A stretch of DNA of 64,000 nucleotides. Origin: Siphonodentalium dalli. Lineage: Eukaryota; Mollusca; Scaphopoda; Gadilida; Siphonodentaliidae. Every line of letters begins with the position of its first letter. The first letter of the stretch is position 1. Where the stretch lies: the NCBI GenBank assembly GCA_032622095.1, contig CP136066.1, positions 93,331,319 through 93,395,318 of the forward strand. The letters are read 5' to 3'. The translations under genes and the position numbers were made by a program. The notes beneath the pieces are model-generated. The model was not told the DNA's origin. It worked only from the letters and a program-made list of their open reading frames with translations, and did not search any database. This document shows positions 3,472 to 50,900 of the stretch, piece after piece.

Positions 3472-3720
3472 TTAACCCTTTCATGGTGGGAGCTGCGCTG
3501 GTTCAGCATTAAATATCCTGTGCCAGTGCATTCTCTTATATATGCAAGTCTCCCATAGATAAGAAAATGCACTGGCTTACAAGGTCATGGTAAATATTGT
3601 TAGGCTAATGTATTCTCTTATATATGCAAGGCTCCCAATGGGAGACTCGCATATATAAGAGAATGCATTGGCACAGGGTATTCGAAAAATACCAGGAAGC
3701 TCCAATCATGGAAGGGTTAA
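3472..3720. repeat. Family B TTAA element
   Basis: TTAA flanks; ends CCCTTTCATG and CATGGAAGGG. Contains two internal hairpins built from TTCTCTTATATATGC and GCATATATAAGAGAA, the family hallmark. Confidence 0.88.
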
Positions 3721-14900: not shown

Positions 14901-17900
14901 TCTGCTTAGGACTCAACTGCTTTGGGAGACCTAGGATCAGATTGAAGTTCCCCATTGATACTTGATTACATTCATTGGCGGTTTTAGGTGAGCATCTGGT
15001 CTGGGTGTATTAAAAGGCCATCATAGAGGAGCGTATACACACAGGACTCAAATGTAAAACATCATCTCTCCTATCAATATAACTACAGCCCTCTCAAATA
15101 AGATTTTTTGGCTTCGGCAATCTGCCATGGCAACCATTGCCATGGGTCCAGTTTGCATCAGCTGTAACTAGCTGGTTTACCTACGTGCAGACTTGGACTA
15201 GCGATGTTGTCATTAATCTATGGATCGGGCAGGGAAATACTGCTGCAATGCCCTAAATAATTCACTCCTCAATGAGAGCTTTCCGATGAATGGCAACAAG
15301 CCATATTTCCGACTAAATCCTGAAAAGTTACCCATAATTCTGCTGTGGTTATGGAGTCGATTATTTAAGGCATTACTGCTGTATGTCTGGGGAAATTTGG
15401 GTCAGGGTAAAGGGACCCATATCCCCTCTAGCGGTAACCCTGGATGTATACATTAACTGATTTCATACATCTTCCTTCAACCCTTACATGACTGGAGCTT
15501 CCTGAAATTTTGCGAAAACCATGTGCAAATGCATTAATTCTTTTATATATGTGAGTTGCCCATAGGGCACTTGCATATATAAGAGAATACATTCACCTAA
15601 CAATATTTACCTTGGCCTTGTAAGCCAGTCAAGCCATCTTGGATTTTACTCTTTGCATGACTAAATCCTTTGGCACAGGTCAGACATTGCAATTAGCACC
15701 TTTCCTTTCCTATATACTGTCAACCATTAAATTATTCCCCTACCTAAGTTGAGCTACAGTGTCATTGACACTTTCATTGTTGTGTGTATAGACCGAGACA
15801 GTTTAACCCTTTCATGACGAGAGCTGCGCTGGTGAATCATTAAAAACCCTGTGCCAGTGCATTCTCTTATAGCTGCGAGGCTCCCTATGGCAGACTCGCA
15901 TATATAAGAGAATGCACTGGCTTTACAAGGTGAAAGTAAATATTGTTAGGCCAGTACATTCTCTTATTTATGCCCTACATGGGTGACTCGCATATATTAG
16001 AGAATGCTTGGCACTCGGTTTTCGCTAAATTTCAGGAAGCTCCAGTCATGAAAGGGTTAACCTACCAAATTATCACAAATGTCATTCAAATATAAAAACC
16101 ATATCGAAATGGCAGCCACATGTAGTACAGAAGATGACATTATGTACCAACATAGTATAAATTATAATGGTTCTGGCAGTTGGTTCTGGTTAGATTTGCC
16201 CTTTAATATTCTTCATACTTTATTATAAACACTCTATTAATGTCAGGAATGTGGTGAAAATGGGGGTCATGGGTGATAACATGATAACATTTGTGGGAGG
16301 AGGTGGGGTGAGACATCCCCACCCCCACCGATGTCACCATGTTGCCGCAACGCATACCTGATTTGGCCATTAAACATCATGACTCCATGTTGTGGTTCTT
16401 GTTTTCATTTGATCAAAGATGTCTGAAGCTGAGGAAATTTGAGGGTTTAGTATTATCGTAGAGTCCATATATTGGTCTGCAATATTGCATTATTCCAATA
16501 TCGAACTTAATTATTAACTACAATTGGAAGCTCTGTATTATAACACAATACTCCCAAGTGAGCAGTAAAATACAGAGAACTTAATATAGAATACACCCAT
16601 GGTAGCTGAGAATACCAAATTTTCACCAAAAGTGGAATTGTGGTTTTAATCACAGCCTGTTGGCATTTATTTTATTTATGACATAATTATTATTTTTTAT
16701 TTGTTCTGCGAATTCAACTACCCCGCTGTTTTCTTATCCACACCGAGAGACACAAACATGATGCTATAAGGAATGTGTGCAGTGATGCATACATTTATGT
16801 CATGACGTCAGCCTGTTTCTGAGAGATAAGTCACTTGGAATTACCATTCATACGTTTCCTAGTTCATATAATACTAGCAAGCTACATAAATATGATTGAA
16901 ATGTAAGCAATTTTCCTCATATCTAATTGATATCATGACAACTTCTGAATGTGACATAGGAACTATTTTACTAACTACGATGTAGTTCTACTATTGGTAT
17001 AAACCTTTAACACATGACATTACGTTTGAACATTTACACCACAGTAGAAATTTATACCCACAGTAGGAAGCTGTATACCCACAATAGGGTGTAAAGATGA
17101 AGTTTACAAAATAGGTGTTATACACACAATAGAATAGGCAATTATGGTATTAATTATCACAAAGGGCCAACACATAGTAAGGTTGCAATGCACTCATCTG
17201 GATTTTGCTTAAGTCTCCTTTCCCAATTCCCATAGCTAAAAAATAATTAATATCAATATCTTTGCCCATTTTTTACAGAATTTCCTGAATGGAATTGAAA
17301 TAAAGATAAAAAGAATAGAAGATGATATCAACAAAAATCACGAGACAATCAAAGAGATTCGTGATACGGTTAGGAACCTGTCTAGAGGGAAGCCAATCAA
17401 AGGACTCGAACATCTCAAGGAAATTATAGACAAGGAACCAGTCATTAAATATGTACCCAAGGATCCCGCAGACAAAGCACTGGCACAGGGGTCAGATGGA
17501 AAGGTTATGTTATGGAAGGAAACCAAAGTCCCGCAGGAAATGTGCTTGCTCGCTGATGGACCCGCTGCAAAAACAGAAGTTCAGGTGAGTATCCCTACAC
17601 TAGTGTTCCAAATCAATGCAGTCCCAAATAAACATGCAGAATGGAATAAAATTTTAAGCTTTTATTCCTACATTTTTAGCTCAACTTTACTTTGTAAAGT
17701 TTGAACTATTGCCATGGCACAGATATTAATACCATGGGAACCAGTACACCTGCGATTATGAGATTTGTCTGACTTTTTTGTGGAGTTATCCCCCTTTTTT
17801 AAATAAATTTTTTTTGGTCTCCAAATGCAGAATTTTGTCCGAGCTTGTACTCCTGCATTTTCCGGTAAATGTTTGTAGAAAAAGAGGCCAATTGGGAAAT

Positions 17901-20900
17901 TTGGTTTGGAACTACTCAAATCAGTATGTCAGTCTGTTCATCTATGGGTGCGTTCAACTTACATTTCCAGAGCATAACTTAGGTGCGTAGAACATTCCCG
18001 CCACTGGCTGTCATGGGGGGGGGGGGGGGGGGGGGGGGGGGGTATCCTTAGTCTCATTGGGATAACCCACCTTTAGTTGTCTCCAGTTTGCAAGTCTGTG
18101 TACCCATTTAGTGGGCCCATGCAGGACAATGTGGCATCCCCATTGCTCACAGCTTATGTGACCACCATAAAACAATGGCTAGAGTGTTCAACTTGTAGTC
18201 GCTGTCAACACAGCAACATGAGTTTGATGCCGCTGAGTTTTGCAACCAGTAGCTAGGTTTTGAGTTAACCCTTTACCCAACAGAACGTTTTTTTTTACTC
18301 TGTGCCAATGCATTCTCTTATATATGTGAGTCGACCATAGGTCGCCTCGCATATATAAGAGAATGCATTGGCTTAACACATTAAAAATGATAAAATTGTC
18401 AAAGAATGTAGAAAAATATTAAAAAAATTGTTAAAAAATGTAAGAAAAAATTATAAAATGTTTTTTTTTAGGCCAATGCATTCTCTTATATATGTGAGGC
18501 GACCTATGGTCGACTCGCATATATCAGAGAATGCATTGGCACAGAGCATAACTGTAACCATCACAATGTGGTCAATGAACCGGTTCCAATGATATCCATA
18601 TTTGTATGGTGTTATTGAGACAGACCGAAGATATTTAGGCTGTTGAAGCTTTATTTGGGCGTTTTTGGCCGTTTTGTTGGGTAAAGGGTTAAAGTTTAGT
18701 GTGACTGTAAATTTCCACGCTGTTCAAATCTAGCGCATAGTTGTGACTCTTAGCAAGGTCACTCATACTGTACTCGGTACATTGTACCTAGAAGTGAAAT
18801 AGGCACCTGGATAAACATGTTCATGTTCACAAAATTCAGGAATCTCCAGTCATGGAAGGGTTAACTGCTATCTTGATAGGAATCTTTTTGCCCTATTTTG
18901 ATTTGGACTGAAAACCCATAATCCCTAATGGTGTACATGTACATATCACAGCACTTGATAAATAGGATGCAATTTTATAGTTCATAATCAATATTTGTGA
19001 ACATTGCCCACATCATCGTACCATAATTTGCAGGGAATAAATATTTATACTTTTGTTATTAAAAACAATAGAATTACCTACCGTCATTGTCATCACATTC
19101 AATAGATTGAAAGATGAAAGAAATTTATGCCACTCCCCATAGTGTGAACATTAACCCTGTAGCTTACTAGCCATCAGCAAGCCTGCAAATAGTGTGGCTG
19201 TCATTTGCAGAATGAGGTCCCCAGAGGGTGAATTTAGTGATGCTATCCATCACAGCAGGCTAGCATCATCAAATTCACCCACTGGGGACCTCATTCTGCT
19301 TAGGCATCAACTACTTAGGCAGACCTAGGATCAGGCTGAATTTCCTCAGTTGAAGTTGGTGATTTTCACCCATTAGTGATCTCGATTATACAATTTATCT
19401 TCTGCAAATTATGGGATATAGAAACTGAACAGAAGAGAAAAACTAACTAAAAAACAATGGTAATTTAAGACTATAAGATACCTCCCAGAAGATGAGACCT
19501 AAAGTACAATGAGGTGCCCAGAGGGCGACTTTGGTGATGGTAGCCCACTGTGGGCTACGTCACTACATTCACCCACTGGGGACCTCATTCTGCAAATGAC
19601 AGACACACTATTTTAAGGCTTGTAGCCATCAATGGATGCCATAAATTTACTCCATCAAATATTAGTCAGTCCTGGTCTAATTCAACTGACTGGTTGACAA
19701 CCATCCTATTCTGGGGTTGTGCGATGTTCAAAATGATAATATGTCAGACTACATCATTATATGATGGGTCAGATGATGAGGGTGCAGGTTCTACTTTCCA
19801 GCTGACTTATTTTGTCATGAGTGTGGTGTGTAATCTCAGGGACATAGCTTGACGCTCTCTGTTGGGTGGATGTCCACTTTGGATTTACATCTGCAACCCA
19901 CCCCAAAATTTCTAAGATTCCAACAGGTACATGTACAGTAATGCTCTAATTAATCGACCTCTTAACCAAAGCAGAATTATGGGTAACTTTTCAGGATTTA
20001 GTCGGAAATATGGCTTGTTGCCATTCATCGGAAAGCTCTCCCCGAGAGCTTTCCGATGAATGGCAACAAGGCATATTTCCGACTAAATCCTGAAAAGTTA
20101 CCCATAATTCTGCTTTGGTTAAGAGGTCGATTAATTAGAGCATTACTGTACCTCAAGCTTTCTACTGTTGGACATTTCTAATCTAACACTCCCACAATGA
20201 TTGGAACTTTCCAACTGTAAAATTGTTTACTGAAGGTAGTAAAATATCAAACTATTGGTTTCAAAACAACACACTGGTTGGAATATCAAATTATCAGAAC
20301 AATTTGAACCTACTTTTGGTCTGAAGTATCCAATTAAATGTTGTGTTAGGCATGAAATTTCTAAATGTTGAACCCTTCCATGACTGGAGCTTCCTGAAAT
20401 TTTGCGAAAACCCTGTACCAATGCATTTTCTTATATGTGCGAGTCTCACATAGGAAACATCGCATATATAAGAGAATACATTGGCCTAACAATTTACCTT
20501 GACCTTGTAAGCCGGTGCAATCTCTTATATATGCGAGGCTCCCTATGGGAGACTCGCATATACTGGTATTAAAGAATTCACTGGCACAGGATCTTTAATG
20601 TTGTGCCAACGCAGCTCCCGTCATGAAAGAGTTAACAATTATGGCCAAAGTTGGGGGAGTGTTGAAACAGAATCCCCAACAAAAAAACTATTCCTCCACC
20701 TCTGTCGCTACTTTCTGTTTAAAACTTCAGTATGTATGGAGGGTGTACGTGATGTATTGTTTTGTTTCTCAATGGAATAATTTGTCATATAATGTTCAGT
20801 GGTCCATATCCTAGCACAAAGGTGTGATACAGTCCACTATGGAGTACCTTCATTATTAATTCATCATAGAGCTTGGCAGAAACAATGACCTCAGATAGCG

Positions 20901-23900
20901 CATTTCCCATGATAGAAGAACAAAACGACACCCAAGTTTTTTTCTACCATAATAATAACAGGCATTGTTGACAATTAATGGTTCATGATGTGGGTTCTTA
21001 ATGGTTTGATATACAGTAATGCCCTAAATTATCGACTCCTTAACCACAGCAGAATTATGGGTAATTTTTCAGGATTTAGTCGGAAATATGGCTTGTTGCC
21101 ATTCATAAGAAAGCTCTCACAGAGAGCTTTCCGATGAATGGCAACAAGCCATATTTCCAACTAAATCCTGAAAAAATTATCCATATTTCTGCTGTGGTTA
21201 AGGAGTTGATTATTTAGGGCATTACTGTACATGTTAATCTATAATTTGGCATTTAACGTTTTACTATATAACCCTTGTTATTGAGGGAAAGATTGATTGA
21301 TTGATTTTTATTTTGTATAATAACAAATGAGAAGCAAGACCATGGTGCATCGTCTTCATGCTGCTCCTGAAAGATGATCTATAAACAAAGGATGCCCGAT
21401 AAATTTAAAGAGGCATATTCTGGGTTAGATACCTCTAGTCACAGCAACATTATGTGTCATAAAGTCTTTGACAAAGCCAGTACAGTAATGCCCTAATTAA
21501 TAGACTCCATAACCACAATAGAATTATGGGTAACTTTTCAGGATTTAGTCGGAAATATGGCTTATTGCCATTCATCGGAAAGCTCTCAGTGAGAGCTTTC
21601 CGTTGAATGCAACAAGCTATTTTCCGACTAAATCCTGAAAAATTACCCATAATTCTGCTGTGGTTATGGAGTCGATTAATTAGAGCATTACTGTAGCTTT
21701 GTACTGTTGAACAGTTTTACTATAACCAATATATAGACGATACATTATCACCATGTGACCAGGTACACATGTACAAATCTAAATTATTTCTGTTAATTTA
21801 ATTGTCCCTCATGTGTCCCTTTAACTTTAAATCACATGTTTTCTGGACATGACTGAATATTTTCCCAAGCTTAAAGATTGTCTATCTCTTTCTAAATAAG
21901 TTTTATATTGTTTCAGGTTATAAAATAATAAATATGAGTCAAAGACACCTGTCTGGAAATGCTTCTATGAATTAATATTGTTTTTATATCATTATTTTCT
22001 TATACAATCAGATATAAAGCAATAATCATTTGGGACAATTTTTCTTTACTATTTTTAGAAGCTACGGTCAGAATGAGCACGAGCCATAAAATTGTCCCAA
22101 ATTGATTTGTATGTATATTATACTAGTACCAGAAAATTCAAAATAAAATCAATATTAATTTTTAGAAGCGTGTAATACATTTTATAAAATACAGATAAAA
22201 CTGAAGATTGGGTATATTATTTGTCTATAAAGCAGTGTATAAAGTGGTTCTTATGCAGCTGAGTGTAATTCGTAGTGAATCACCTACTAGTAGTTGAAAT
22301 AAAATTTGCCTAGATTGAGGGTGCTAATAAAATAGAATTCTCCCTCTTGGCACACTCCAGGTACTTTCTGAAATTTCTGTTCTAAAATTAGCTCCTAAAA
22401 CTATCCCGAGCATGTGTTTACAAATTCTAAATAAAACTTTTTTTTAATTAATATAATCTTTTCCGGATGGGTGTCCTCGATTCATATCTATTAATTTATA
22501 CCTCGGATAAAAAACTTGCCATGAATATTTACAATGTACATTCCCATATGCATTCGTACTGTAGAACATTTCAGGATATTGGTTGTTTGAAATTACATCG
22601 CGTCACATTACACACTGACCCCTACTTACTTCTATTCTTGTATAGACGCAATTTACAACGAACTTCGAGAATAATGTTGGAAATGGGTGCTTAATGGTCT
22701 TTTAATCTGCCAGTTGACTCAGTTGAGTGTAAATATAAGTAACGGATGTTGATTTTGTTGCGTTCCATAGAGTATAAATGCCAGTTGGTCTGTCATTTTA
22801 TGTGTAGAACGAGACCAACTTGCATCCATACTCTTTGGGACACAACAATATAAACATCCATTACTTAAAGAGATACACTATCTTTAAAGGTCTGAAAATT
22901 ATAGTCTGCGTTAAAGAAATCTTCCAACTTTGTTCGTCCATGTGTCAACAATTGTTTTTTTCCTGAATTTTGATGAAAAACACGACCGCCAGCAGCCATC
23001 TTGTATTTATTGGAGAATTGGTTTGATAATTTACAGCCATGTTTAGAATCACCTCTAGATTGGAGCTATCAAATTTGAACAATTTCTGATGAAAAACATG
23101 ACCACCAGTGGCCATCTTGGAATTTACACTTTGTATGACTAATTCCTTTGGTGCAGCCTATAGACCACATCCCTCATCCGATCATCACCAAACTTCATGT
23201 GGATCTTAGGGGCGACCTCTAAATGGAAAACTCCTATTTTGACCAAAATTTATTAAAAAACATGGCTGCCAGCAGCCATCTTGGATTTCAAATTTGAATC
23301 CATCAGAACACCCTGCAGCCCACATTTATTGGTGAAATGTTTGACCTTTACATGACCTTTTCTGTAACATTTTGGCTTTCCTTCTTCTTTATTATTCTAT
23401 TCATTGCTCAACAAAAAATAAACTCCTTCCCAAGTTGAGCTACGGTGTCATTGATAATTTCATTAATATTAATTTTAGATGCAAAATGTCTATGACTCCC
23501 TGAAATTTGACAATCCTGATGGTGGAGCATGGAAACAGGGCTGGGACGTTACTTACGATGCTTCCGCTGTTACAAAGAAAAGGCTGAGGATTTTTGTTGT
23601 TCCGCACAGTCACAATGATCCAGGTATGAAGGTTCTTGATTATATCTTTTATACTTCTTTCCATTAGCTCAATGGAAACATAATTAGGATCAATTGTGCT
23701 GTCTGGTGTGATTTTATTTCATTCATCAATTTGTTTTCCAATGGATAAAGCATTTTTTTCTGGTGACACAAGGAGCCTGTAAAACATATTTTTCATCTAA
23801 AAACTTTCCAATAAACCTCCCAAAAATAACACCTGACAACATTTTTATCCCCATTCTAATTCACACATGCAAATCACAAGAATCTGCCTATTAGTGGCTG

Positions 23901-26900
23901 AACTGTATGGCTCAAATTCGGCGCAATTATATTTCAAATTTATTAACCTCATCCACTAAATTCAATTCGAGCCTCGATTTTTAGTGCACTCTGTTAATAA
24001 ATTTCGACTCATTAGAGATCCTCTATTTATGCACACATTTTATTGAAGTGTTGCATTTTCAGCGACCATGCAGTCAGGAGGTTTCAAAACTTCTCCCTAT
24101 CTGCTTATTAGGGAGAGGTAGACTTTTATTATTAGGGGGAAGTCATAAAACTGACGGTCAAGTTACATCCCAACATCACTCTTTGTTGATCCAATAAATA
24201 TTATACAATGCAAGAGTTCATTATAATCCATAGTACATTGTATAATCAATAAATACACCATTATAATTGGCAAATACACATAAAATACACTGTTTGGAGA
24301 TAAAGTAATGCCCTAAATAATTGACTCCTTAACCACAGCAGAATTATGGGTAACTTTTCGGTATTTAGCTGGAAATATGGCTTGTTGCCATTCATCGGAA
24401 AGCTCTCAGTGAGAGCTTTCTAATGAATGGCAACAAGCCATATTTCCGACTAAATCCTGAAGAGTTACCCATAATTCTGCTGTGGTTAAGGAGTCAATTA
24501 TTTAGGGAATTACTGTATACATGATCATATATGAGGAAGGACAAAATAGGGAGGCATGACACATTTCAGAGAGGTTATCTCCCATCTCTCCCTCCAGGCT
24601 GGCCCTGTGCCCTTCGTATTGTCTATTGTCCCTATCATTAGCTAGTTTTTGTATGAGAACATTTATGAGCTAATAATAGCCCTATTGTAGTTACATGGGA
24701 AAATTGTTTGTAAAGAATGATATTAAGTGTCCATGTTTATTGTGTTTTTGACAAGAATATAAGTGAAGATGGCAAATTATATGGGGAAAACTGTCATGGT
24801 ATGAAGAAAACAAAGTAATTTGTACTCTTTGTAGTAAAATTTATCATATGTCTGTCAACCTTTATTATAAAATCTGAAACTGACATATTATTATGTTAAT
24901 TAATGCTACACACGTTGAGTGTTCATGCCTTTGCTATGAAACAAGTTATAGCCTACAAAGCTACTATTTTGTTATGATCTTCAAGATAGAAAATTGTGTA
25001 CTTATCCAAGTTATACAACACATCTGTGGCTAATTATACCCCCCCCCCCCCCCCCCCCCCCGCAACGTGTTGTGGGAGGGGGGGGGGGGTATACTGGAAT
25101 CAGCTTGTCTGTCCATCAGTCCGTGCGTCGACACAATTTTGTCAGAGCTTTTCTTCCTGCATTTTTTTGTAAATTTTTTTAAAACGTGGCACATATATTT
25201 ACTACCATGGGAACCGGTGCACCTGCGATTATTAGGTCTGTCTAACTTTTTTTTGTGTGGAGTTATCCCCCCCCCCCCCCTCCCCTTTTTAGACTTAGAT
25301 AATTTTCTCAAGATACATAATTTTGTCCGAGCTTTCATTCCTACATTTTTCTGTCTATTTTTTTAAAAACTTGTCACAGTTATTTAGTACCAAGGGAACC
25401 TGTGCACCTGCGAGTATGAGGTCCATCTGTCTTTCTTTTATGGAGTTACCCCCCTTTTTCAACTTAGAGAATTTTCTCAAGATGCATAATTTTGTCCGAG
25501 CTTTTATTCTTACATTTTTCTGTCAATTTTTGTTAAACTTGGCAAAGTGATTTTGTCATTGAAAATGAGAACTCATTTACCACATCTAATATCATGTTGA
25601 GACTAGACTTTGAACAGTGATCGACAAAGAAATTGTTTTTATTGCTAATAAAAAGCAAAAATCAAGAAAAACTGTTTTGAGCACTGGGGATGATAGTTTT
25701 CGGAAACACTTATCCATTTATTTTTATCTTATATGAGAAATTTGGTAATAATCAATTACATTGAAAGATACACCAGTTTTCAGTGGAACTATATATGTCT
25801 CCTCATATCTTATGGTGACACTCCACAGTTTCAACAGGTATGGGCCCAGAAATAGGGGGCCCATAGATTCATTGAAATTTATCTGGATTATGATCCCAAA
25901 CCATATAGACAATATATATATGCCTGAAATTAGTACAGAATAGGCATTCAGAATTTGATACATAATTTCCATAATATATGGGCTATCAAGAGTTATGGCC
26001 CTTGATCTTTTGATCGAAAATGTGATTTTTATTAAAAAAATGTCCAAAATATTGCATTTTCATACCCAATAGGCACGAATACCAGATTTATCAAGCATGG
26101 TCACCTATGTTGGTTTAAAGGCCTCTGGCTTCCAACATCAATGTGAAAAAATTTCAAACTTTCGCTGTTAAATTTTCCAGAAAATCAATTTTTAATGCAG
26201 ATGAAAAATTTTGGGTGCTAAAAAATTGACCCAGTATCTAGAGCCACTGTTTCGCAGAAAACGCTACTGCTGTCTATGGGTGGGGTCAAGGTCACTTGCA
26301 CTTAATTTTTTCATCAGTCTAGAACACCTTCTAAAATTACACAAATTCATATCCCACCTTGTCTCAATATACATACCACATGAATGGTGCCAGAAACCAC
26401 TAGCACTTTATATCTATAAAATCACCCCTACTGATCATTCGAAACTGTGGAGTGTCACCTATGGTGATATACATGTGATAATCGTGTCTTCTACAGGCTG
26501 GATAAAGACATTCCGAGAGTACTATGTGCAGCAGACTAAAAAAATATTTGAAAATATGGTGCCAAAATTGGAAGAAGACGCAAATCATAAATTTATCTAT
26601 GCAGAAATGTCTTTTTTCTCTGAATGGTGGAATGAAATAGATGACGCTAAGAAACAGAGGGTGAAGAAGTGAGTAGAAATAATTAACCCTTTCTATTCTC
26701 CAGTTCTTCCCATGAGGAAAATACAGCAAGAGCACTTACAGTAATGCCCTCAATAATTGACTCCTTAACCACAGCAGAATTATGGGTAATTTTTCAGGAT
26801 TTAGTCGGAAATATGGCTTGTTGCCATTCATCGGAAAGCTCTTAGTGAGAGCTAACCCTTATGGCTGGAGCTTACTGAAATTTTGTGAAAACCCTGTGCC

Positions 26901-29900
26901 AATGCATTCTCTTATATATGCGAGTCTCCCATAGGAAGCCTCACATATATATAAGAGAATGCATTGACCTAACAATATATACCTTGACCTTGTAAGCCAG
27001 TGCATTCTCTTATATATGTGAGGCTCCCTATGGGAGACTCGCATATTTAAGAGAATGCACTTGCACATGGTTTTTAATGCTGCACCAGCGCAGCTCCTGT
27101 CATGAAAGTGTTAATGCTTATTTAAATTACCACGAAACGGTCCGCCTTTTGGTTTTATTTCCTTGATTATTTGTCATTTTTATTCACAGATTAATTAACA
27201 AGAAGCAGTTGGAGATAGTGACCGGTGGTTGGGTGATGAACGATGAAGCGAACACACACTACTACGCAATGGTCGATCAGATGATAGAAGGCCACCAATG
27301 GCTCAACGGGACTCTAGGTAATCACCCTAAATTGTTGAATGGATTTTTCCCATTCAATTCGAAAAGTACCCAATGGAATGTTCCATGTTTTCCATTTATA
27401 GGAATATCCAGATACTAGAAACAGATGAAAAGCAGAGAAACACTCTAAAGATTCATTTGTTACATAAACTGTTCTTGTAATAAGTTCAACAAACAACCTA
27501 AGGCTGTTTGTTGAAGTTTTAGGCTGAGCATCCCTCCAAATGAATCAATGGGAATCAAGTTGTTACCGATCTAGTGAGGCTTTTGTATTGGATCTGAGGG
27601 GTAAAAGTTTCAGATACAAGTAAATCTAAAATAGAGTACATGACAAAATATGCAGAAAATATTCTTTTACTTCTTACTGAACATTTTTGCCCCAGTTATG
27701 AAATCAAGGTGCTCGTTTGTTATTTATCCCTTTCATGACGGGAGCTTCCTGAATTATTGTGAAAACCCTGCGCCAATGCATTCTCTTATATATGCGAGTC
27801 GACCATATGTCGCCTCTCATATATAAGAGAATGCATTGGCCTAACAAATTATATATTATTTTTTATAATTGTTAAAAAATGGAAAAAAATGGAAAAAATG
27901 ATTTTTTTTAAAGAATGTAAGAACAAAATGATAAAATTGTTAAAGAATGTAAGAACAAATTATAAAAATTAAATAAAACTGTTAAAGAATGTAAGAAAAA
28001 TTGATAAAAAATGATAAACAATTGTTATGCCAATGCATTATTATGCCCCCGACTTGAAGTCGGCGGGTATATAGTCGACGTATCCGTCCGTCCGTCCGAA
28101 CATTCGTATGTCCGAACAAACATTTTGCATTATTGTTCAGCAACCGCTGAGCAGATTTAGCTGATATTTGGTATGGTGATAGAGCAGCATGGGGGAACAG
28201 CTACATGCATAGCGCGGGTTTCGTCCACCCATTTTCACCAGAGATATGGCTCTTTTTTTTACTTAGAAAATTCAATTTTTCTCTGTTTTTTTTTGGTTTC
28301 CAGATGATAGCGTGAGCTTTGGTGGTACGATTGCAAATTCCGTATTTTTGTTGATCAGTTATATGAAAATACATGTCAAGTACGAAATTGGGTATGATCT
28401 GATGATTTTTGCCAGAGTTATGGCCCTTTTTTCAACTTAGAAAATTTGAATTTTTGCTTGTTTTTGGGTTTCTGGATTGCTTGTTTTTGGGTTTCCGGAA
28501 TTTCTAGTACGAACTTCTTTTGGAATGGTCATATAGACCTCCTCGGATATCCGCAGTTTCGTCCATGCTTAATCCGAATTGCTACGGTCGGGGGCAAATC
28601 TATGGTCGACTTGCATATATAAGTTAATGCATTGGCAGCTCCCGTCATCAAAGGGTTATATTTTTTTCCTTCAGGAATCAAGCCAGAGTCTGGGTGGGCT
28701 ATTGACCCGTTCGGTCATACATCCACGATGGCTTATCTCCTCAAGAAGATGGGTTTTAAAAACATGCTGATACAAAGGGTGCATTACGCAGTGAAGAAGT
28801 ATTTAGCGCGAAACAAAATGCTGGAATTCATGTGGCGACAGCAGTGGGGTAAGAATTCTTTCTTTACTGAATGGATTGTCCTATTGTTACAAAAAGTGTA
28901 CATTGGATAGGTCTATTGTTCATCCAAAGGGATATTCAGGAAAATTGAGCTCCGTTACAGCAATATTCTTTTAATTGGATCCCGAAAGTATTATCTAAAC
29001 ATTTTCCACAGATGAATAGGAATTCTTTTACACTTTTTGTTTATTTGGATCCCGAGAGTAAGTTCAACAAACAGTTGTTTAACTTATTATGTGAAAATTT
29101 GTACAGTAATATAAGGAATATACATATATAGAGGATCTACAAGGAGTTCCCAGTTTTATACAAACGAGTCCAGTAAATTACGCCTGGACGGAGCCTTTGG
29201 CGAGATCTAGGCCTAATTTACTGGACGAGTTTTGTAACTTCTGCTGTAAACTGGGGACAAGTTGTAGATTCTATTTATTACATGATCCAAAAACATCGAC
29301 AAAACATACTGAAATCAACAAATGGGATGCGAAACTAACATCTACTTCTATAAGGCATGCGATGACGTTTCACGTAACTATGCATTGTTTGCCCGCATAA
29401 AGAAATAGTCCCAGATAAATATAGACTCTTTGGCATATTTAATGGCATATATTTAATGACATAACTTTTCAAAATCTTCATTCAATATAGTTTGTTGGAA
29501 AAATATTGGAAGCCATAGTATTTTGAGACGTAGCATACGGAATGTAAACAGACGACAAACCGGAAGTCAAAGGTCGCATGGCACTATTTCTGTTACGGAA
29601 ATTAAACAAATGTTTAATATCACAATTTATAGAATGGGTTTATTGAATGGAATAACATTAGGATCATGTAATAAATAAGGGATATAACATTTGTGCAGAG
29701 TTGGGCGCTTTATAGCTTTTTACACCAACAAGAAATAAATAGAATGTGATAGGGAAGCATATAATTAATACAGTATACCGAGAGTCATCCATTATGATCA
29801 ATAAATTCTCTATAACAGATCAGAGGGGTTCAACGGATATTCTATGTCACATGATGCCGTTCTATTCTTATGACGTCCCACACACATGTGGTCCAGATCC

Positions 29901-32900
29901 GAAAGTATGCTGCCAATTTGACTTTGCCAGACTTCCTGGAGGAAAGATTCATTGTCCATGGAACGTTCCACCAAAAGCTATCACTGACTCAAATGTTGCA
30001 GAAAGGTATGTGGTTGAGGCCTGATGATTCAATCTTGCATTATCTACTCAATTCATTTGTTTTCAAAATGGGAATGAACCCTTTTATAGCTGAGTTCTCA
30101 ACGATTAATAGGATGTTTGATTCCAAGTGATTTACATGAATGCCCTAAATAATCGACTCTTAACCACATCAGAATTATGGGTAACTTTTCAGGATTTAGT
30201 CGGAAATATGGCTTATTGCCATTCATCGGAAAGCTCTCAGTGAGAGCTTTCCGTTGAATGCAACAAGCTATTTTCCGACTAAATCCTGAAAAATTACCCA
30301 TAATTCTGCTGTGGTTAAGCAGTCGATTATTTAGGGCATTACTGTACAAGTTCTACAGATATTCTTAGGCTGTTTATTGAACTTTTTAGTTGAACTTCTC
30401 TACAAAGGAAACCTGAGATTGGTTTTTGGCTTACATTGAACAATTGTTGTATTTCCTAGATCGAAGGCCTAAGCAGAATTAGGTCCCCAGAGGGTTAATT
30501 TAGTGATGCTAGCCCGCTGTGCGTGATAGCGTCAATAAATTCACCCTCGGAGGACCTCATTCTGCAAATGACAGACACGCTATATCAGGCTTGTTATCTA
30601 CCATGCTTGAAATTGCTTAGAATGCCACAAATTTAGGGCTGAAAGCTGGTCTGTTGGTACAGTGCCTTCGCTGAAGTCAACAATAGCTGAAAGAATAGTG
30701 AAGGGCTGGTAATTTAGTTGCATGGTTTACCAACATAGTGATATAGTGGATATGTGAGCTTCCCTAATATGGTTAGATGTCAAAGTAATTTTATCTATGA
30801 ATGTGTCTTGATGTTTAAACGTTGTTCGTTGTAACAATTTAGAGTAAACTTTACTGTTACAGGCCGAAACATTTAATTTATATTTTTGTAGCAGTAAAAG
30901 AAATAAAATAATTCAGTCATCAGCAGCACATATTCCAATTGTTTGTCTGTTGGGAATTTGAGTTTCACTAGCACAAGGTGACATACTTTTTATTTTTATA
31001 TGGTAAATTTTTCCCTATTTTATTTTAGAGCATCAGTGCTTCTTGATCAGTACAGGAAGAAAGCCCAGCTATACAGGAGTAATGTCGTACTTGCTCCACT
31101 TGGAGACGATTTCCGCTATGATAACTCTCAAGAATGGGACAAACAATATCATAATTACCAACAACTGTTCAACTATATGAATGCCAACAAAGATCTTAAT
31201 GTAGAGGTAAGACAATGTTAGAAATATCTTGGTTACCATGTCCCTTTGTTACCATGTTACTAAGCCAGCCATAAAATTTGCGATGAACTGATTTTTTTCT
31301 CGCCTCTCGTTAACCCAAATCAAAAGTGGGGAAACAGTTTCATGATCATCATAGCCATAATAGCTTGAATAGCTCTCATTCATGGAGAGTTGGATCATCT
31401 ATATATATAACAGCCAAGTGTTTTTCTCTGTGCCGGTGTGTGCGTATCTGCATTTATCTGTCAAAAATGTTGGCAGTTACAAAAATATATATTGCGCCCA
31501 AATTTTGACCATGGGTGGACATCACCAACTTCAACTGGGGAACTTCAATCTGATACTAGTTCTCCCATAGCAGTTGAGGCCTCAGCAGAATGAGGTTCTC
31601 AGAGGGTGAATTTGGAAATGCTAGCCCGCCATGTGAGATAGCATTACTACATCAATCTGATCCTAGATCTCCCATAGCAGTTGAGACCTCAGCAGAATGA
31701 GGTTCCCAGAGGGTAAATTTGGTGATACTAGCCCAAATACTAGCATGTGGGGACCTCATTCTGCAAGTGACAGACACACTATTTCAAGGCTTCTTTAACA
31801 ATGTGCACCTTTAACCCTTTCAGTGCCAAGTCCGATTTTTGTATCAACCCATATTTCCTTGATCATTTTTCAAATTTATTGATTATAATAATGTGATACA
31901 TTGATGGAAAGAGCTCTAAGAGTTGGCACTGAAAGGGTTAACAACATGCTTCCCTTTACTACTACAGGCTCAGTTTGGCACTCTGTCTGATTACTTCAAT
32001 GCGATATATGAGGAATTTAAAGTTGAACCTGGATCAAAATTACCTGAATACCCGTCACTTTCTGGTGACTTCTTCACATACGCTGATAGGGAGGATAACT
32101 ACTGGAGCGGTTACTACACAACGAGACCATTCTACAAAAGTCTCGATAGAATAATGGAGTACCATGTCAGGTGAGTTGTGTCTATTAAACGAGATAATTC
32201 TACAAAAGTCTCGACAGAATAATAGAGTACCATGTCAGGTGAGTGGTGTATATTAAACGAGATCATTCTACAAAAGTCTTGATAGAATAATGGAGTACCA
32301 TGTCAGGTGAGTGGTGTATATTAAACGAGATCATTCTACAAAAGTCTTGATAGAATAATGGAGTACCATGTCAGGTGAGTTGTGTCTATTAAACGAGATA
32401 ATTCTACAAAAGTCTCGACAGAATAATAGAGTACCATGTCAGGTGAGTGGTGTATATTAAACGAGATCATTCTACAAAAGTCTTGATAGAATAATGGAGT
32501 ACCATGTCAGGTGAGTGGTGTATATTAAACGAGATCATTCTACAAAAGTCTTGATAGAATAATGGAGTACCATGTCAGGTGAGTGGTGCCTATTAAATGA
32601 GATCATTCTACAAAAGTCTCGATAGAATAATAGAGTACCATGTCAGGTGAGTGGTGCCTATTAAAAATTAATTACACTGCGCCTTTCCGCAAAAGGCTAT
32701 ATATCAGATTAGGTGGAGACAATGGCTCACCATGATGTATTCATTGTTTCATATTTGCATGAACAATTAATAAATTTTTTATCAAATTGGCCATATTATG
32801 ATCAAAAATTTCTGACTGACATGTCCCTCAACTCCGATCAAGTTTGAAAATCGATGTCACTCCACCCCTCACGTCGAGGTGTGAACAGGTGCCAGTAGCC

Positions 32901-35900
32901 CAGACTGTGATGATGGTGTTCACGATCTACCAACCTCAGCTACAGGGACATCCCGAACACTTTCATGACGGGAGCTGCGCTGGTGCAGCATTAAATATCA
33001 TGTGTCAGTGCATTCTCTTATATATGTGAGTCTATCATAGGGAGCCTCGCATATATAAGAGAATGCACTTTGCAAACAAGGTCAAGATAAATATTGTTAG
33101 GCCAATGTATTATATTATATATGTGATGCACCATATGGGAGACTCACATATATAAGAGAATTCATTGGCACATGGTTTTTGCTAAATTTCCGGAAGCTTT
33201 GGTCATGGAAGGGTTAAAAGGGAAACCCTTATATTGAGAGTTGAGTTGCGTAACAGTCTGAAAATGGGTTTGAAATGTTATACAGAATGGATCTACCATT
33301 CCAGAACTGCACAATGCACTTCCTTTGTAATTTGCATTCTGTAACAATATTTTGTTTATGGCACTATCAGAATATGTATCAGAATGGAGTTCCTGATTCA
33401 GTATAATACATTCATTGCTTTGTATGCGCGTGAACAAACTATAATTTTTTATCGAAAATCAAAATGGCCATGTTACAATCAGAATGGTAAATTGAGATGT
33501 CCCTCAACTCAGATCAAGCTTGAAAATCTGTTCCGTTTGTCACCCATGTATGTGTTGATATTTTTCGTGAGCAATATCAAATTTATCAAAATCAAAAGTA
33601 TTGTTTAGACATGGACAGAGCCTGACTTTTTCAGTGGCCTTATGAATAAAGCAAAATACTGAATATTTTTGTTTCAGAGCGGCTGAAGTTATCTTCACTA
33701 TGGCAAGAACATTTGCAGCAAAAAATTATATGAAAAATTACCCTGTGGTGATGTTCATGAAATCTATGATAACCGCTCGGAGGAACCTCGGACTGTTCCA
33801 ACACCATGACGGTATAACAGGTACAGCCAAGGACCAAGTCGTCGTTGACTATGGACAGAGGTAAGAGGTCATATACTGTCTGCTGTCTCTATTTAAGAAA
33901 TCAAAACCTTATATATTCTACCAATCAGCAACTGAGATGGTCGCTGCTGCATCGAGAATTGTTTGTTCACCCCATCTTTGATTTCTTCACATAATTGTGT
34001 TAAAGATGCATAATCCGATTAAGCACACCTCAATTACTATTTATTTGGATTCGGGGGTAAAAAATATTTGAATCGAGTCGAGGAACCCACCTATCAAATC
34101 TCAGAGTTATTAGATATCGATTTTTTAAATCAATTATTTTTCAACATTGAGACATATTAGTAGCCCAGTAAAAAGTTGTCGAGCCGACGGCCTCTGACCA
34201 AATTGGAGATCGATAACTCTAAAATCAAGAGTCTTTGTGTTGCTAATAAGGCAAAATTACGTCAAACAACATGTTGATAGATAACACGTTTCGGGCAATT
34301 TTATACTATAGTTGATAGTGGTTAGCATTATTTTTGGGCAATTAATTGATTCTGATAACTAAAGCGGTATTTCTAAAAATGTTGTTGTTGGAATCTGATT
34401 ATATGGGGACCATCGAATCGGATTGAGTACCTTTAAATTTTTTATTTTCAAACAACTTTTTTGTTGTCAAATGACTCAAATCATAATATACTGAAACTTT
34501 TATTTGTGCAATGATGTTTGAAAAGAATTCATGAGTATAACACTATTTTTCTTTTGCATGACACTTGTCATATTTTTCACAATTAAAGATGAAAAGAATG
34601 TATATTCTCGGATGTACTATGGCATATAGACGGGAACTGTAAAACTAATTAAACTATTTCTGCAGACTTCTTTCTCCTAGCAATCGTAAGCTCCTCCCAA
34701 TAATTAATATGTGTGGAAACCTCCATTATTAGCCATCTATGCACCACCTTATATTAATAGATTTATGAATCTCAATTTCCTTGCTGACATTTCATATTAT
34801 GATGTTTCAGATTGATAGATTCGATGATAGATATGAAGAAACTGATAGCAGAATCTGCGACTTTCCTCGCGATGGATGATAGATCCAAATATGAGCGATC
34901 AGAGAATACACCAATTTTTAACATGGTATGGTATAAGATTCATTCTTTTGAATATCACTTCATATTTGAAAGGCCACATATAGTGAATTTCTCATTTCTC
35001 AGGTCCGATTGCTTGGTCCCGAAACCCCGCTTTAATATGCAACCTTTTTATTTGCCTTTTAAATGCGGAAAATTTTAATGGTATGAAATAATTGCAGTAC
35101 ATATGTTTTGACAAACATGCTTGAAAGTGAGATTGATGGCTGTGAGAAAGGGGATGGCAGAAAGACCATCTTGTTGGACTATTCCAGCACCTCTCCTATC
35201 CTATCCTATCGAACAGAACCGTTCCTTGTTCAGAATACTGTAAGTAACTAACTATGTCCATTCATGTTAAAAACATGAAGAATGAAGACTGCAATATCAG
35301 TCAAAAATGTGTCAGTGATTCTTGATTGGATTATTTGGACAAAATAAATTGCACAGAATCCATCAACAACATTTTTACGGACATATGTTCGGGAAATATT
35401 GGCCACAGGTAACTGAAATTGGACCCGGAGCTAGCCGATGCGGAGGTGGATCGTTTATCGGCATGTGCCATAGAAATAAAAAATGAAATAAAAAATCACG
35501 TTCACACATTCTTTTCAAAATATGTTTGCCTGAGAAACTTGAAAATGACTTTGCATGGCCTAACAGTAATTATATTTGTTATAAACATTGAACAATAGGT
35601 ATATTATCTGGAATATTCATAGCTGTTTTTGGGTGGATACCAAGGACAAAACATATGTTTATATTCGCAAGCAGTTTGCTAATTGTCTGGTTTACAAATG
35701 AAAAAATGTTGTATTCACTCAGAAACACTAGATTTTTTTGATTATATGCATTTCCTATGAAATTCACCATATTCAACAATGAAGTTACTCATTATAATAT
35801 TTAATTGCTGCAAGAAAGGCAACAGCTGCCCGATCACCCAGTGTTATATTACAGGCCACCACAGTGTAATATAGTTCTCCTATGGTGATATTCACATGTT

Positions 35901-41900: not shown

Positions 41901-44900
41901 AGTGTGGTCACCTGATACTCTTGCTGAAGACTGCTTGCTTCAGACCAGTTTACCATCTGTCATTACAAGACATGACATTAGCTAAACAACTATTCTACCA
42001 GAGTCTACAAGAATAAATAGGAATAGTCCATTGTTCATTTCTCCAAGCCTGGACATAGTGTGTCTGACATTTGCAGAATGAAGTCCCCAGATGGTGAATT
42101 TAGTGTTGCTATCCCATACAGCAGGCTAGCATAACCAAATACACCCTCAATTACCTTATTCTGCTTAGGCCTCATCTTTTGGGACAAATTGTTTTTTAAA
42201 CATGTTTTAAAATTTGAAAAAAGTGACACCATTATAACATCTGCAGAGTTATGAAACTTTACTCTTTAATGAAATTATGGAAACATTCCACCCTCCCCCA
42301 CCCACCCCCTCCCACATGGCCCAGACCCAACCTTGCCATCAACCAACATCCCTTCCAAGCCATATCACCTCTCAATTTAATACCTCTTCTCACCACAGAG
42401 GCATATATATCTGTAAAGGTACAGGTCATTAATTATATAAACAGGCCAGATGACATGTATTATTCTAATCTAAACATATCTGTAGCAATTTAACAACAAA
42501 CTGGTGCTCCCATGGTTATGTGATGACCGACATTCAATGATACTGTGAATGGCTTTGATTTCTTCAAGTCTGGAAATAGTGTGTCTGACATTTACATAGT
42601 GAGGTCCCCAGATGGTGAATTTAGTGTTGCTACCCCATACAGCATGCTAGCATCACCAAATACACCCGCCAGGGACCTAATTCTGCTTAGTCCTCATCTT
42701 CTGGGAAGTATCCTAAGTATCAAATTGACAGTTTGATTTAGTCACTTTTTCCACCTGTTCAGTTTCAATGTCCCCCTAATTTGCAGAAGATAAAATGCAT
42801 AATTGAGGTGCTTAATGGGTGTGTATCACCAACTTCAACTGTAGGACTTCATTGATTTAGTCACTTTTTTCCACCTGTTCAGTTTCAATGTCCCCCTAAT
42901 TTGCAGAAGATAAAATGCATAATTGAGGTGCTCAATGGGTATGTACCACCAACTTCAACTGTAGGAGTTCAATCTGTTCCTTGGTTTTATTGGCCATTGA
43001 GGCCTAATCAGATTGAGGATGAATTTGGTGATGCTAGCCTGCCTTACAGAATATTGTCATTAAATCCACATTTTTGGGACCTAATTCTGCAAATGTCAGA
43101 CATACTAAATTCAGGTTTGGCCATTTCATATTATTGTTTTAATCACCACTTATCCATACGACTAATATTCAAAGAGAAATGGGGGGGGGGCGGTATATAT
43201 TGGATTAAATTTGTCTTCTATCTGTCAGGCTTCCATCCGTCTGCCTGTTGAGATGTCTATCCATCCATCTATCAACAATTGATTTCTTCTCCATATTAAA
43301 GACGGAATGTGTTTATATAGTTCAGTGTGCATGTTCCCTAGGTGTCTCAAAATAAGATTTGTTCAATTAAGTTCTTCACATCAAATACATGTAGGTGCCA
43401 AGTCAGGGCCATAACTCTTTCCCTCCATAGTAAGTCTTAAAACAGTTTTTTCTAAAGAACCATTAGGCCTATATAGCTTATAGCTTGGTATGGAGGGGCC
43501 TTGGGTGACTGGGGTTCAGATTTGTTCATGGGGTCATTTTTAGGAAATGAGGTCCCCAGAGGGTGAATTCGGTGATGTTAGTCCACCTTGCGGAATATTG
43601 TCATTAAATTCACCTGCAAAGGTCAGACACTAAATACAGACTCGGCTGTTCCAATATTAGTTTCTTAACCAGCACTTATCCAGGTGAAATCATACCCTGA
43701 TTTTTCAAAGAAAATTGGGGGGTATATTGATATTACTAGATGAATGGATCTCATAGATGAGGATTCACATTTGTTCTAATAGGGGCAGAGATAAGAGATT
43801 TAACTCTCCTCTATGCTGTGTGGTACTGGTATAATAATATTGATTTCTAGACAGCCTGGGTGGGGGCAATGTTTGAGGCAATGGGGAGGGAGCGCTCAAT
43901 TTAACCAAACAAAATAAAATATATATATTTTTTATTTTTAATAAATATTTTTTTTTATTAAATAAAATATTTTTTATTTAAATAAAATAAAAAACATTTA
44001 ATTAAAATTTTGAAGAACTTATGACATTACATCTTTGGGGGGGGGGGGGGGGTAGGTACCTCTAGTCTCCCCACTAAATTTGGTTGAAATCAGGGGTTTG
44101 GGAGAAAAGATGAACAGACAGATGTACAGAAATGTTCAGTAAATTCCTTTTAATACCAGTATCTGTGCATTCCCATTACAAGTCAACTCTGCTCTGAACT
44201 GACAGACATGACACATGTTGTTTATAATCAGGGCCAGATAGAAAGATAAGAGAACTTCTGTAGCTATAGGCAGAGTCCCCAGGGAGTGTATTCATGTCAT
44301 TCATAATTTAAATGAGATTAATGGTGTTGTACATTTGTTTTCTGAAGTTGTCAGTAGCACCATCATTGTTTACAATACAATGGTCATTAATATCAGATTA
44401 AATTCATTTTCTCAGAGCTTTAAGTGTGTCTGGCATTTGTAGAATCATGAGGTTCCCAGAGGCTAGCATCGCCAAATACATCCTATGAGGACCTCATTCT
44501 GCTTATGCTTCATCTTCTGGGAAGTATCTAGAGTCTCAAATTGACATTTTTAGCAGCTCTTTTCCCTTCTGTTCAGATTTTAAAATGCATAATTGAGGTG
44601 TTAAATGGGTGAGCATACTGTCATATGTCAGTAATTTCACCAACTTCAGCTGGAGAACTTCTGTCTGTCCCTAGGTCTCCCATAGCAGTTGAGGACTAAG
44701 TAAAATTGGGTTCCCAGATGGTGAATTTGGTGATGCTAGCCTACCTTACAGAATAGCATCACTACATTCACCCTTTTGGGACCTCAGACACACTAAATTC
44801 ACGCTTGGCTGTTCCAATATTATTTTCTTAACCACTTAGCTATGTGACCTCATTATACCTTATTATGGACAAAAAAGTGTGGGGGTATATTGGATTAAAT

Positions 44901-47900: not shown

Positions 47901-50900
47901 CCGTAATTGTTTGTATGCGCGAGCTAATGGCCACGCGTTGGGGTCTCCATTGGTAATCGCGGCAGTAATCCGGACTCCGTAAGCCTGTAATTCGCTCAAT
48001 GTTGGGGCAAACTCAGGAAGGCAGGAACTTAATCGACCGGACACATGCCAATGAGGTCATTCCACGAAAAGATTATTCCTTTACTTCCTGGTTATACGGT
48101 AAACACAACGTTTTCTTTCTCTCATTTTAAATGTGATTTCACGTTCTCTTTTTCAAAAGAAAAATAGTTTTCAATAACATCCGTATATCGCAATGTTATT
48201 TGGGCAAAATTAACATTTTCTTTTTAGTAAACGCTAATACTACACGACCCTATTTGAAACTCCAGTAGTGGGTCATCTTGGCACATTTGATCTTCTGGTG
48301 ATTTCCGACAACAGCATTGTAGTGTGCTCTGTCATCAAAGGGACTCTAGGTTTCCTACAAATTTTCCTTTTGTTCCTAATTACATGTTTGGTTCACTATA
48401 TGTAGAATTCTATCCATTCGACTTCTTCCGGCTATCTTACAGGGTTGGTGCAACTATTTCGGCGAGAATCTCTTCCCGGTCATTAGTAAAGATTATCGGT
48501 CCATGATATTTCAATCATACCATGGATTAATGGGTGTCTGAGCCCTTTTTAGCTCACCTGAGACGAAGTCTCCGGTGGAGCTATAGTCATCACTCCTCGT
48601 CCGTCATCCGTCCGTCCGTCCATCCGTCCGTCAACAATTCTTTGAACATCTTCTCCTCTGAAACCGGAAGACCGAATTGGTTCATATTTGGTGTGGATGT
48701 TCCCTAGGTGACTCTCATTCAGATTTGTTCAAATGAGGTCATTGCGAAGCCAGGGCCATAACTCTATCCCTCCATAGTAATTCTTACAACGACTTCTTGT
48801 TCAGAACCATTTGGCCGATTTAGCTAATATTTGGTATGGAGGGTCCTTGGGTGACTGGTGTTCAGATTTGTTCAAATGAGGTCACCCGGTCAATTAGTTG
48901 AGAAACCAGGGCCATAACTCATAGTAATTCTTACAATGACTTCTTCTAAAAAAATATTTGGCCGATTTAGCTTATATTTGGTACAGAGATACCTTGGGTG
49001 ACTGGGGTTCAGATTTGTTCAAATGGGGTCACTGGGTCAAATAGGGGCAGAGCCAGGGACATAACTTTAAAAATAAAAAAATAATTTTTTGCATTTTGAC
49101 CTTTCATTTTTGTTTAGGACACATCACAGCCTCATATTTCTTACCTAGATTTTTCTTAGCATGTTCTTCATCTGTATGGATTTTGGTATTGGTATTGTTT
49201 ATTTAACCCCTTCCACTCTTGTTTTGATATATAATTCATCCAAGACAGGATTACTCAAACATTTTTCATCTGATCAACACCAAATTTGGTATATGAATTT
49301 TTGACACTTATATACAGATCAAGTTAAAATATGGGTTTGATCCGATATATTTTAACAGAGTTATGGCCCTTTATAATTCACACCTCTTTGCTATGCACTA
49401 TTAATTTTTAAGAGAACACTGAAGCCTGTATTATTGAAAAAGCCAATTTATCATAGTGTGGTCACCCGATACTCTTGCTGAAGACTGCTTGCTTCAGACC
49501 AGTTTACCATCTGTCATTACAAGACATGACATTAGCTAAACAACTATTCTACCATAGTCTACAAGGAATAGTTCATTGTTCATTTCTCCAAGCCTGGACA
49601 TAGTGTGTCTGACATTTGCAGAATGAAATGAGCATTTCCTATCTTTCCTATCAGGTTTTGGTCTTTTCATGCGTTCAGTTTCTATGGCCAGTCTATGAGC
49701 ACTCAGCCTCATAGAGTTAACAAACGACGGTTATTCGTTACAGAAACAGTGTTTCCACTTTACAAGGGAATGAAGTCCCCAGATGGTGAATTTAGTGTTG
49801 CTACCCCATACAACAGGCTAGCATCACCAAATACACCCTCAATTACCTTATTCTGCTTAGGCCTCATCTTCTGGGACAATTTTTTTTTAAACATGTTTAA
49901 AAATTTGAAAAAAGTGACACCATTATATATAACATCTGCAGAGTTATGAAACTTTACTCTTTAATGAAATTATGGAAACATTCCACCCTCCCCCACCCAC
50001 CCCTCCCACATGGCCCAGGCCCAACCCTGCCATCAACCAACATCCCTTCCAAGCCATATCACCTCTCAATTTAATACCTCTTCTCACCACAGAGGCATAT
50101 ATATCTGTAAAGGTACAGGTCATTAATTATATAAACTGGCCAGATGACATGTATTATTCTAATCTAAACATATCTGTAGCAATTTAACAACAAACTGGTG
50201 CTTCCATTGTTAGGTGATGACTGACATTCAATGATACTGTGAATGGCTTTGATTTCTTCAAGTCCGGAAATAGTGTGTCTGACATTTACATAGTGAGGTC
50301 CCCAGATGGTGAATTTAGTGTTGCTACCCCATACAGCATGCTAGCATCACCAAATACACACGCCAGGGACCTAATTCTGCTTAGTCCTCATCTTCTTGGA
50401 AGTATCCTAAGTATCAAATTGACAGTTTGATTTAGTCACTTTTTCCGCCTGTTCAGTTTCAATGTCCCCCTAATTTGCAGAAGATAAAATGCATAATTGA
50501 GGTGCTCAATGGGTGTGTATCACCAACTTCAACTGTCAGACATACTAAATTCAGGTTTGGCCATTTCATATTATTGTTTTAATCACCACTTATCCAGATG
50601 AAATCATACGACTAATATTCAAAGAAAAATGGGGGGGGGCTATATATTGGATTAAATTTGTCTTCTATCTGGCATTTGCAGAATGAGGTCCCCAGAGGGT
50701 GAATTTAGTTATGCTACCCTGCACAGCAGTCTAGCATCACCAAATACACTAGCCAGGGTCCTCATTCTGCTTAGGCCTCATCTTCTGGGAAGTATATAGG
50801 CACTTAAATTGACATTTTTACTTACTTTAGCCCTTCTGTTTAGTTTCTATATCCCCTAATTTGTGAATATAAAATGCATAATTGAGGTGCCCAATGGGTG

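Follow-up and report, generated by a model that had tools for sequence, protein, structure and literature searches.

Within the 64,000-nt stretch of Siphonodentalium dalli contig CP136066.1 analysed here (hereafter the window), ten exons on the forward strand, from 17279 to 34925, join through the splice site that we call donor 1 in one open frame of 597 residues. All ten are preceded by AG and followed by GT, and the nine introns among them measure 521-5894 nt. The protein of this partial model matches two Pfam domains, GH38 N-terminal (PF01074, residues 140-468, 3.4e-88) and alpha-mannosidase middle (PF09261, residues 474-577, 2.6e-21), and its best solved relatives are chains of Golgi alpha-mannosidase II (top E 2.7e-175). 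The alignment to the solved alpha-mannosidase II runs without a gap over the junction that concerns us here (EYHVR/AAE vs. MHYVRAAE, the slash marking the exon end). With the N-terminal and middle domains and a continuous match to a solved enzyme in place, the gene is, judged by its predicted protein, a Golgi alpha-mannosidase II (GH38). The exon at this junction is the eighth coding exon that we found, and the label "exon 9" which it bore in a preliminary description of this DNA holds only if one more coding exon lies upstream of 17279.

Using tblastn with a human MAN2A1 probe, we found three further exons at ~56447, 60022 and 60549, all with open frames and splice signals, so that the mannosidase gene looks alive and appears to extend toward the window end; its remaining C-terminal part, if present, would lie beyond the window. 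The N-terminal half of the same probe, run as a control, recovered 8 of the 9 modelled exons that it covers, missing the one at 34811, and C-terminal matches with E of at least 0.64 (at 43054, 41162, 26306 and 14881) were set aside. A search for the later exons with motifs returned no match on the forward strand and one on the reverse strand (34430), a false negative when set against the tblastn result. The intron from 34926 to ~56447 is apparently ~21.5 kb long, far longer than any of the preceding nine, unless an exon within it was missed.

Table 1 The repeat array, its candidate splice donors and the surrounding exons of the mannosidase gene (window coordinates)
Feature	Position	Strand	Basis
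Minisatellite of eight 68-bp units, each with 51 nt of exon and 17 nt of intron	32120-32665	+	TRF, unit alignment
Donor 1, CAG/GTGAGT, sole frame-keeping donor of eight	32168-32176	+	motif, isoform reading
Donor 2, same 9-mer, gives HVR-stop	32236-32244	+	motif, isoform reading
Donor 3, gives HVR-stop	32304-32312	+	motif, isoform reading
Donor 4, gives HVR-stop	32372-32380	+	motif, isoform reading
Donor 5, gives HVR-stop	32440-32448	+	motif, isoform reading
Donor 6, gives HVR-stop	32508-32516	+	motif, isoform reading
Donor 7, gives HVR-stop	32576-32584	+	motif, isoform reading
Donor 8, closest to acceptor, gives HVR-stop	32644-32652	+	motif, isoform reading
Exact 204-bp-step duplication, 236 bp (32145-32380 = 32349-32584)	32145-32584	+	repeat comparison
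Host exon (exon 9 of the preliminary description), 203 nt, ends in unit 1	31968-32170	+	open frame, gapless alignment
Following intron, 1507 nt via donor 1, contains units 2-8	32171-33677	+	GT...AG ends, frame
Next exon, bears HHDGITG	33678-33860	+	frame, alignment

The end of the host exon lies in a tandem array (Table 1) for which TRF reports a period of 68, 8.0 copies, 94% matches and 0% indels, with a score (945) that is the highest of the 22 TRF rows in the window. A minisatellite is defined by units of ~10-100 bp repeated head to tail in several copies, and this is what we find. Each unit joins the final 51 nt of the exon to 17 nt from the start of its intron; the preliminary description had recognized the repeated exon end but put its length at 42 nt, and of the nine exon columns that the longer unit adds, three (3, 8 and 9) are variable. 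Overall, 9 of the 68 columns vary among units (6 in the exon, 3 in the intron), and as many as 6 of the 65 positions compared differ between units. None of the nine columns of the donor 9-mer varies, and the unit alignment places CAG/GTGAGT at the exon end in all eight units, just as had been claimed. The description of all eight donors as "functional" survives for copy 1, on the evidence of its reading frame, while copies 2-8 have no such support.

The sequence CAGGTGAGT occurs nine times on the forward strand of the window and not once on the reverse strand. Eight of these sites have their GT at 32171, 32239, 32307, 32375, 32443, 32511, 32579 and 32647, and the ninth, at 17585, closes a different exon of the mannosidase gene. 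The donor there has a single copy of CAG/GTGAGT and the strongest predicted U1 pairing among the ten modelled exons (-14.1). Compared against the rest of the window, the array gave no match at E 1e-3. We rejected a chance origin of the donors in view of the TRF array itself, the presence of the donor in eight of eight units, and single-base shuffling of the array, which produced a mean of 0.0165 consensus donors (MAGGTRAGT) per shuffled array (2000 shuffles).

Conceptual splicing of each donor to the exon at 33678 leaves one of the eight isoforms open and seven with a stop, each of donors 2-8 giving the same ending (...DRIMEYHVR, then the stop codon). This bears out the preliminary observation that the first donor alone keeps the frame and that the later ones add an immediate TGA. 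The TGA arises because the junction is in phase 2 and the donor letters read G/TGA; any phase-2 GTGA donor reads TGA, and we therefore rejected the idea of a designed or special stop. The stop follows residue 498 of the 597 in the partial model, after the GH38 N-terminal domain and within the mannosidase middle domain. Downstream of this position, at 540, lies the motif HHDGITG, which we take to contain a metal ligand in alpha-mannosidase II, and a protein truncated ahead of it through use of any of donors 2-8 should be inactive.

Which donor should win was considered from pairing, accessibility and exon length. Six of the eight copies have a predicted U1 pairing of -13.3 kcal/mol, and copies 1 and 4 have one of -12.2, with the nine other modelled donors of the gene ranging from -6.1 to -14.1; by this model all eight donors would be strong, and the authentic donor 1 is if anything slightly weaker. 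The predicted probability that the donor 9-mer is unpaired is low in every copy; for copy 1 it is 0.0098 at a 70-nt span (other copies 0.0032-0.0349), 0.0034 at 120 nt (other copies 0.0005-0.0079) and 0.0005, tied lowest, at 200 nt (other copies 0.0005-0.0024). Copy 1 thus does not stand outside the values of the other copies at any of the three spans, and we accordingly rejected an arrangement in which donor 1 is open while donors 2-8 are hidden. Seven of eight donor 9-mers at 70 nt, and all eight at both 120 and 200 nt, are predicted to be less open than the regional median 9-mer. The RNA fold of the array as a whole is not striking (z = -1.60, with 5 of 100 shuffles folding at least as well).

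Exon length and position point in different directions. Donor 1 gives an exon of 203 nt, and donors 2-8 give exons of 271-679 nt. Long introns accompany exon definition and exons under ~300 nt, and the intron lengths of this gene (521-5894 nt) suggest exon definition, under which a normal exon length would be favoured; this argument, which comes from general knowledge of splicing, suggests a preference for donor 1 and perhaps donor 2. On the other hand, duplicated-donor experiments attributed to Reed and Maniatis in 1986 and to Hodson in 2012 reportedly tend to select the donor that lies closest to the acceptor, a preference that would favour copy 8. Wild-type DOK7 prefers the downstream donor, closer to the acceptor and also the stronger of the two, and in minigenes where a copy of this donor, 11 nt away, took the place of the upstream one, suppression of the upstream site is relieved.

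Collectively, we consider that the array is probably a nearly neutral minisatellite that expanded recently over an exon-intron border; the enzyme would come from donor 1, and any transcripts leaking to later copies would be degraded. A segment spanning this border of the Golgi alpha-mannosidase II gene would first have been duplicated in tandem, and slippage or unequal exchange would have carried it to eight copies, the one visible later step being that of three units together. Donor 1 would supply most of the mRNA, because it yields the normal-size 203-nt exon and is located after native exon sequence, while some transcripts may leak to later donors and be lost by nonsense-mediated decay. The array would thus be a passenger, either nearly neutral or of slight cost, and not a selected switch. 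We rejected selection keeping the donors, given that zero variable columns in the donor has P = 0.25 when 9 of 68 columns vary—a rough test, as the copies of an array are related and not independent—and it is this lack of excess conservation in the donor columns that leads us to read the array as a passenger. The proposal that extra donors form a dosage switch varying with copy number between individuals finds no support.

Were the identical donors instead to compete for the one acceptor, such that a substantial fraction of transcripts ended in HVR-stop and decayed, enzyme output would fall with added copies. We think such a copy-number-dependent poison isoform rather unlikely, even with donors 2-8 equal to or slightly better than donor 1 in predicted U1 pairing and with an identical stop from all seven of them. 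U1 occupancy of several donors affects site choice according to a 2016 paper, and the length of an intronic VNTR in ABCA7 tracks both splicing and expression (PMC5954066). The ABCA7 case is a parallel in that the length of a tandem repeat is tied to splicing of the host gene, but that repeat is intronic and the correlation is with exon skipping and not with use of copied donors. Intact exons in a conserved enzyme gene speak against heavy loss, and the DOK7 minigenes show that the upstream of two like donors is usable, although a spacing of 11 nt is far closer than one of 68 nt.

The expansion that we envisage for a nearly neutral passenger has left traces among the units. Unit 2 is identical to unit 5 and unit 3 to unit 6, whereas two intron positions distinguish unit 4 from unit 7, so that the earlier statement that units 2-4 recur as units 5-7 applies to the first two pairs and not to the third. 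Later growth by a 204-bp step, which had also been proposed, does appear in another register, as an exact repeat of 236 bp (Table 1), the longest at that step, which extends into the coding exon. An exact internal repeat of this length indicates recent growth and, as far as comparison of the copies can tell, shows that a late duplication added three units' length at once and reached the coding exon. Column 8 is T in all of units 2-8 but C in the coding copy, unit 1, which suggests that units 2-8 descend from a single early extra copy, and intron letters common to units 1 and 4 may reflect later exchange between copies. Only about two bases (AA) are possibly common to both junction ends, and the first duplication was thus probably not driven by long homology.

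The same exact 236-bp repeat would fit a false join in the assembly as well as it fits a recent duplication: a shorter true array (e.g., of five units) might have been lengthened by the joining of two alleles or of overlapping reads, giving the exact 204-bp step. With units that differ at up to 6 of 65 positions, however, a real multi-unit array is very probable and it is mainly the exact step that is doubtful, and we regard assembly error as distinctly improbable.

The GT...AG geometry of the units raises a further reading, to which we attach very little likelihood. Since an AG stands immediately before every donor, splicing at donor k leaves an extension of 68(k-1) nt bounded by GT and AG. 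A second splice, from donor 1 to the AG of copy k, would then give back exactly the normal message, as a nested and self-repairing intron; read by letters, each extension has GT at its start and CAG at its end, and the normal junction results when it is removed. Intron gain by tandem AGGT duplication (the Rogers model, with ATP2A1, fission yeast and potato RdRp as cases; PMC4974935) provides a parallel, as tandem copies with AG/GT there likewise bound GT...AG stretches, and fission yeast introns are described across tandem 24-bp AGGT copies. The mannosidase array differs in that its AGGT is an existing exon-intron border and its AG is without a good polypyrimidine tract. The pyrimidine fraction (17 nt) before the unit AG is 0.41 in all eight units, compared with 0.53-0.88 in all ten modelled acceptors, and a second AG begins 13 nt upstream in all eight units, whereas the preceding AG begins 23-53 nt upstream in nine of the ten modelled acceptors and is absent from the searched stretch for the tenth. 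The tandem AG/GT unit of such introns is present, but a good acceptor context, by this simple measure, is not. If this reading were true, with U1 on many copies and any donor used first, copy number could drift freely and leave the enzyme unharmed. Finally, a U1 sponge that titrates U1 or guards the pre-mRNA from early polyadenylation has next to no likelihood and titration was rejected, for although 32171-32647 holds 8 of the window's 11 forward-strand GT sites whose predicted U1 pairing is -12.2 or stronger, U1 is very abundant, eight sites in a single gene should make no difference to its pool, and the donors show no sign of selection (P = 0.25).

Returning to the nearly neutral minisatellite, a repeat that provides multiple splice donors is already known from human IFI6 (Turri 1995), where, according to a citing paper, two downstream repeat units serve as splice donor sites and three mRNA species result; the likeness lies in minisatellite units that offer splice donors. 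In the mannosidase array, a consensus donor stands at the exon end in all eight units. The IFI6 unit is reportedly ~12 nt long and keeps the frame, whereas the mannosidase unit is 68 nt long and each downstream donor means an immediate stop; this stop, together with how many equal donors there are, makes the array useful as a natural experiment. In human duplicated genes, too, internal tandem repeats at exon-intron boundaries are reported to change splicing (PMC2812944), likewise with minisatellite variation at such a border, but the cases there concern novel introns, some via cryptic sites, in primate-specific paralogs, whereas in the mannosidase gene one authentic donor was multiplied. Queries of the open literature that did not include the word mannosidase, and are weak to that extent, found no comparable array in a mannosidase gene. 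With eight identical strong donors, near-identical neighbours and one acceptor, the array resembles the classical duplicated-donor experiments as nature might have set them up, in a conserved gene where the first donor alone would yield a working enzyme. It thereby bears on the weight of exon length and native exon sequence vs. nearness to the acceptor, and on the tolerance of mis-splicing as copies accumulate.

Several other repeats were observed in the window. The intron that contains units 2-8 also holds a ~262-bp element with inverted-repeat parts (32956-33217), whose relatives (~79-85% over ~260 bp) start at 3474, 3828, 10170, 15805, 20368 and 26853, with shorter relatives elsewhere in the window; it looks like a MITE-type repeat. 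A direct repeat (42076-42842 and 49768-50536), with 96.9% identity over 771 aligned positions, is by its appearance a recent duplication or a young mobile element. TRF additionally reported tandem duplications at 42733-42971 (120 bp x 2, 95% matches) and 48773-49066 (147 bp x 2, 83% matches), as well as a run of 28 G at 18015-18042.
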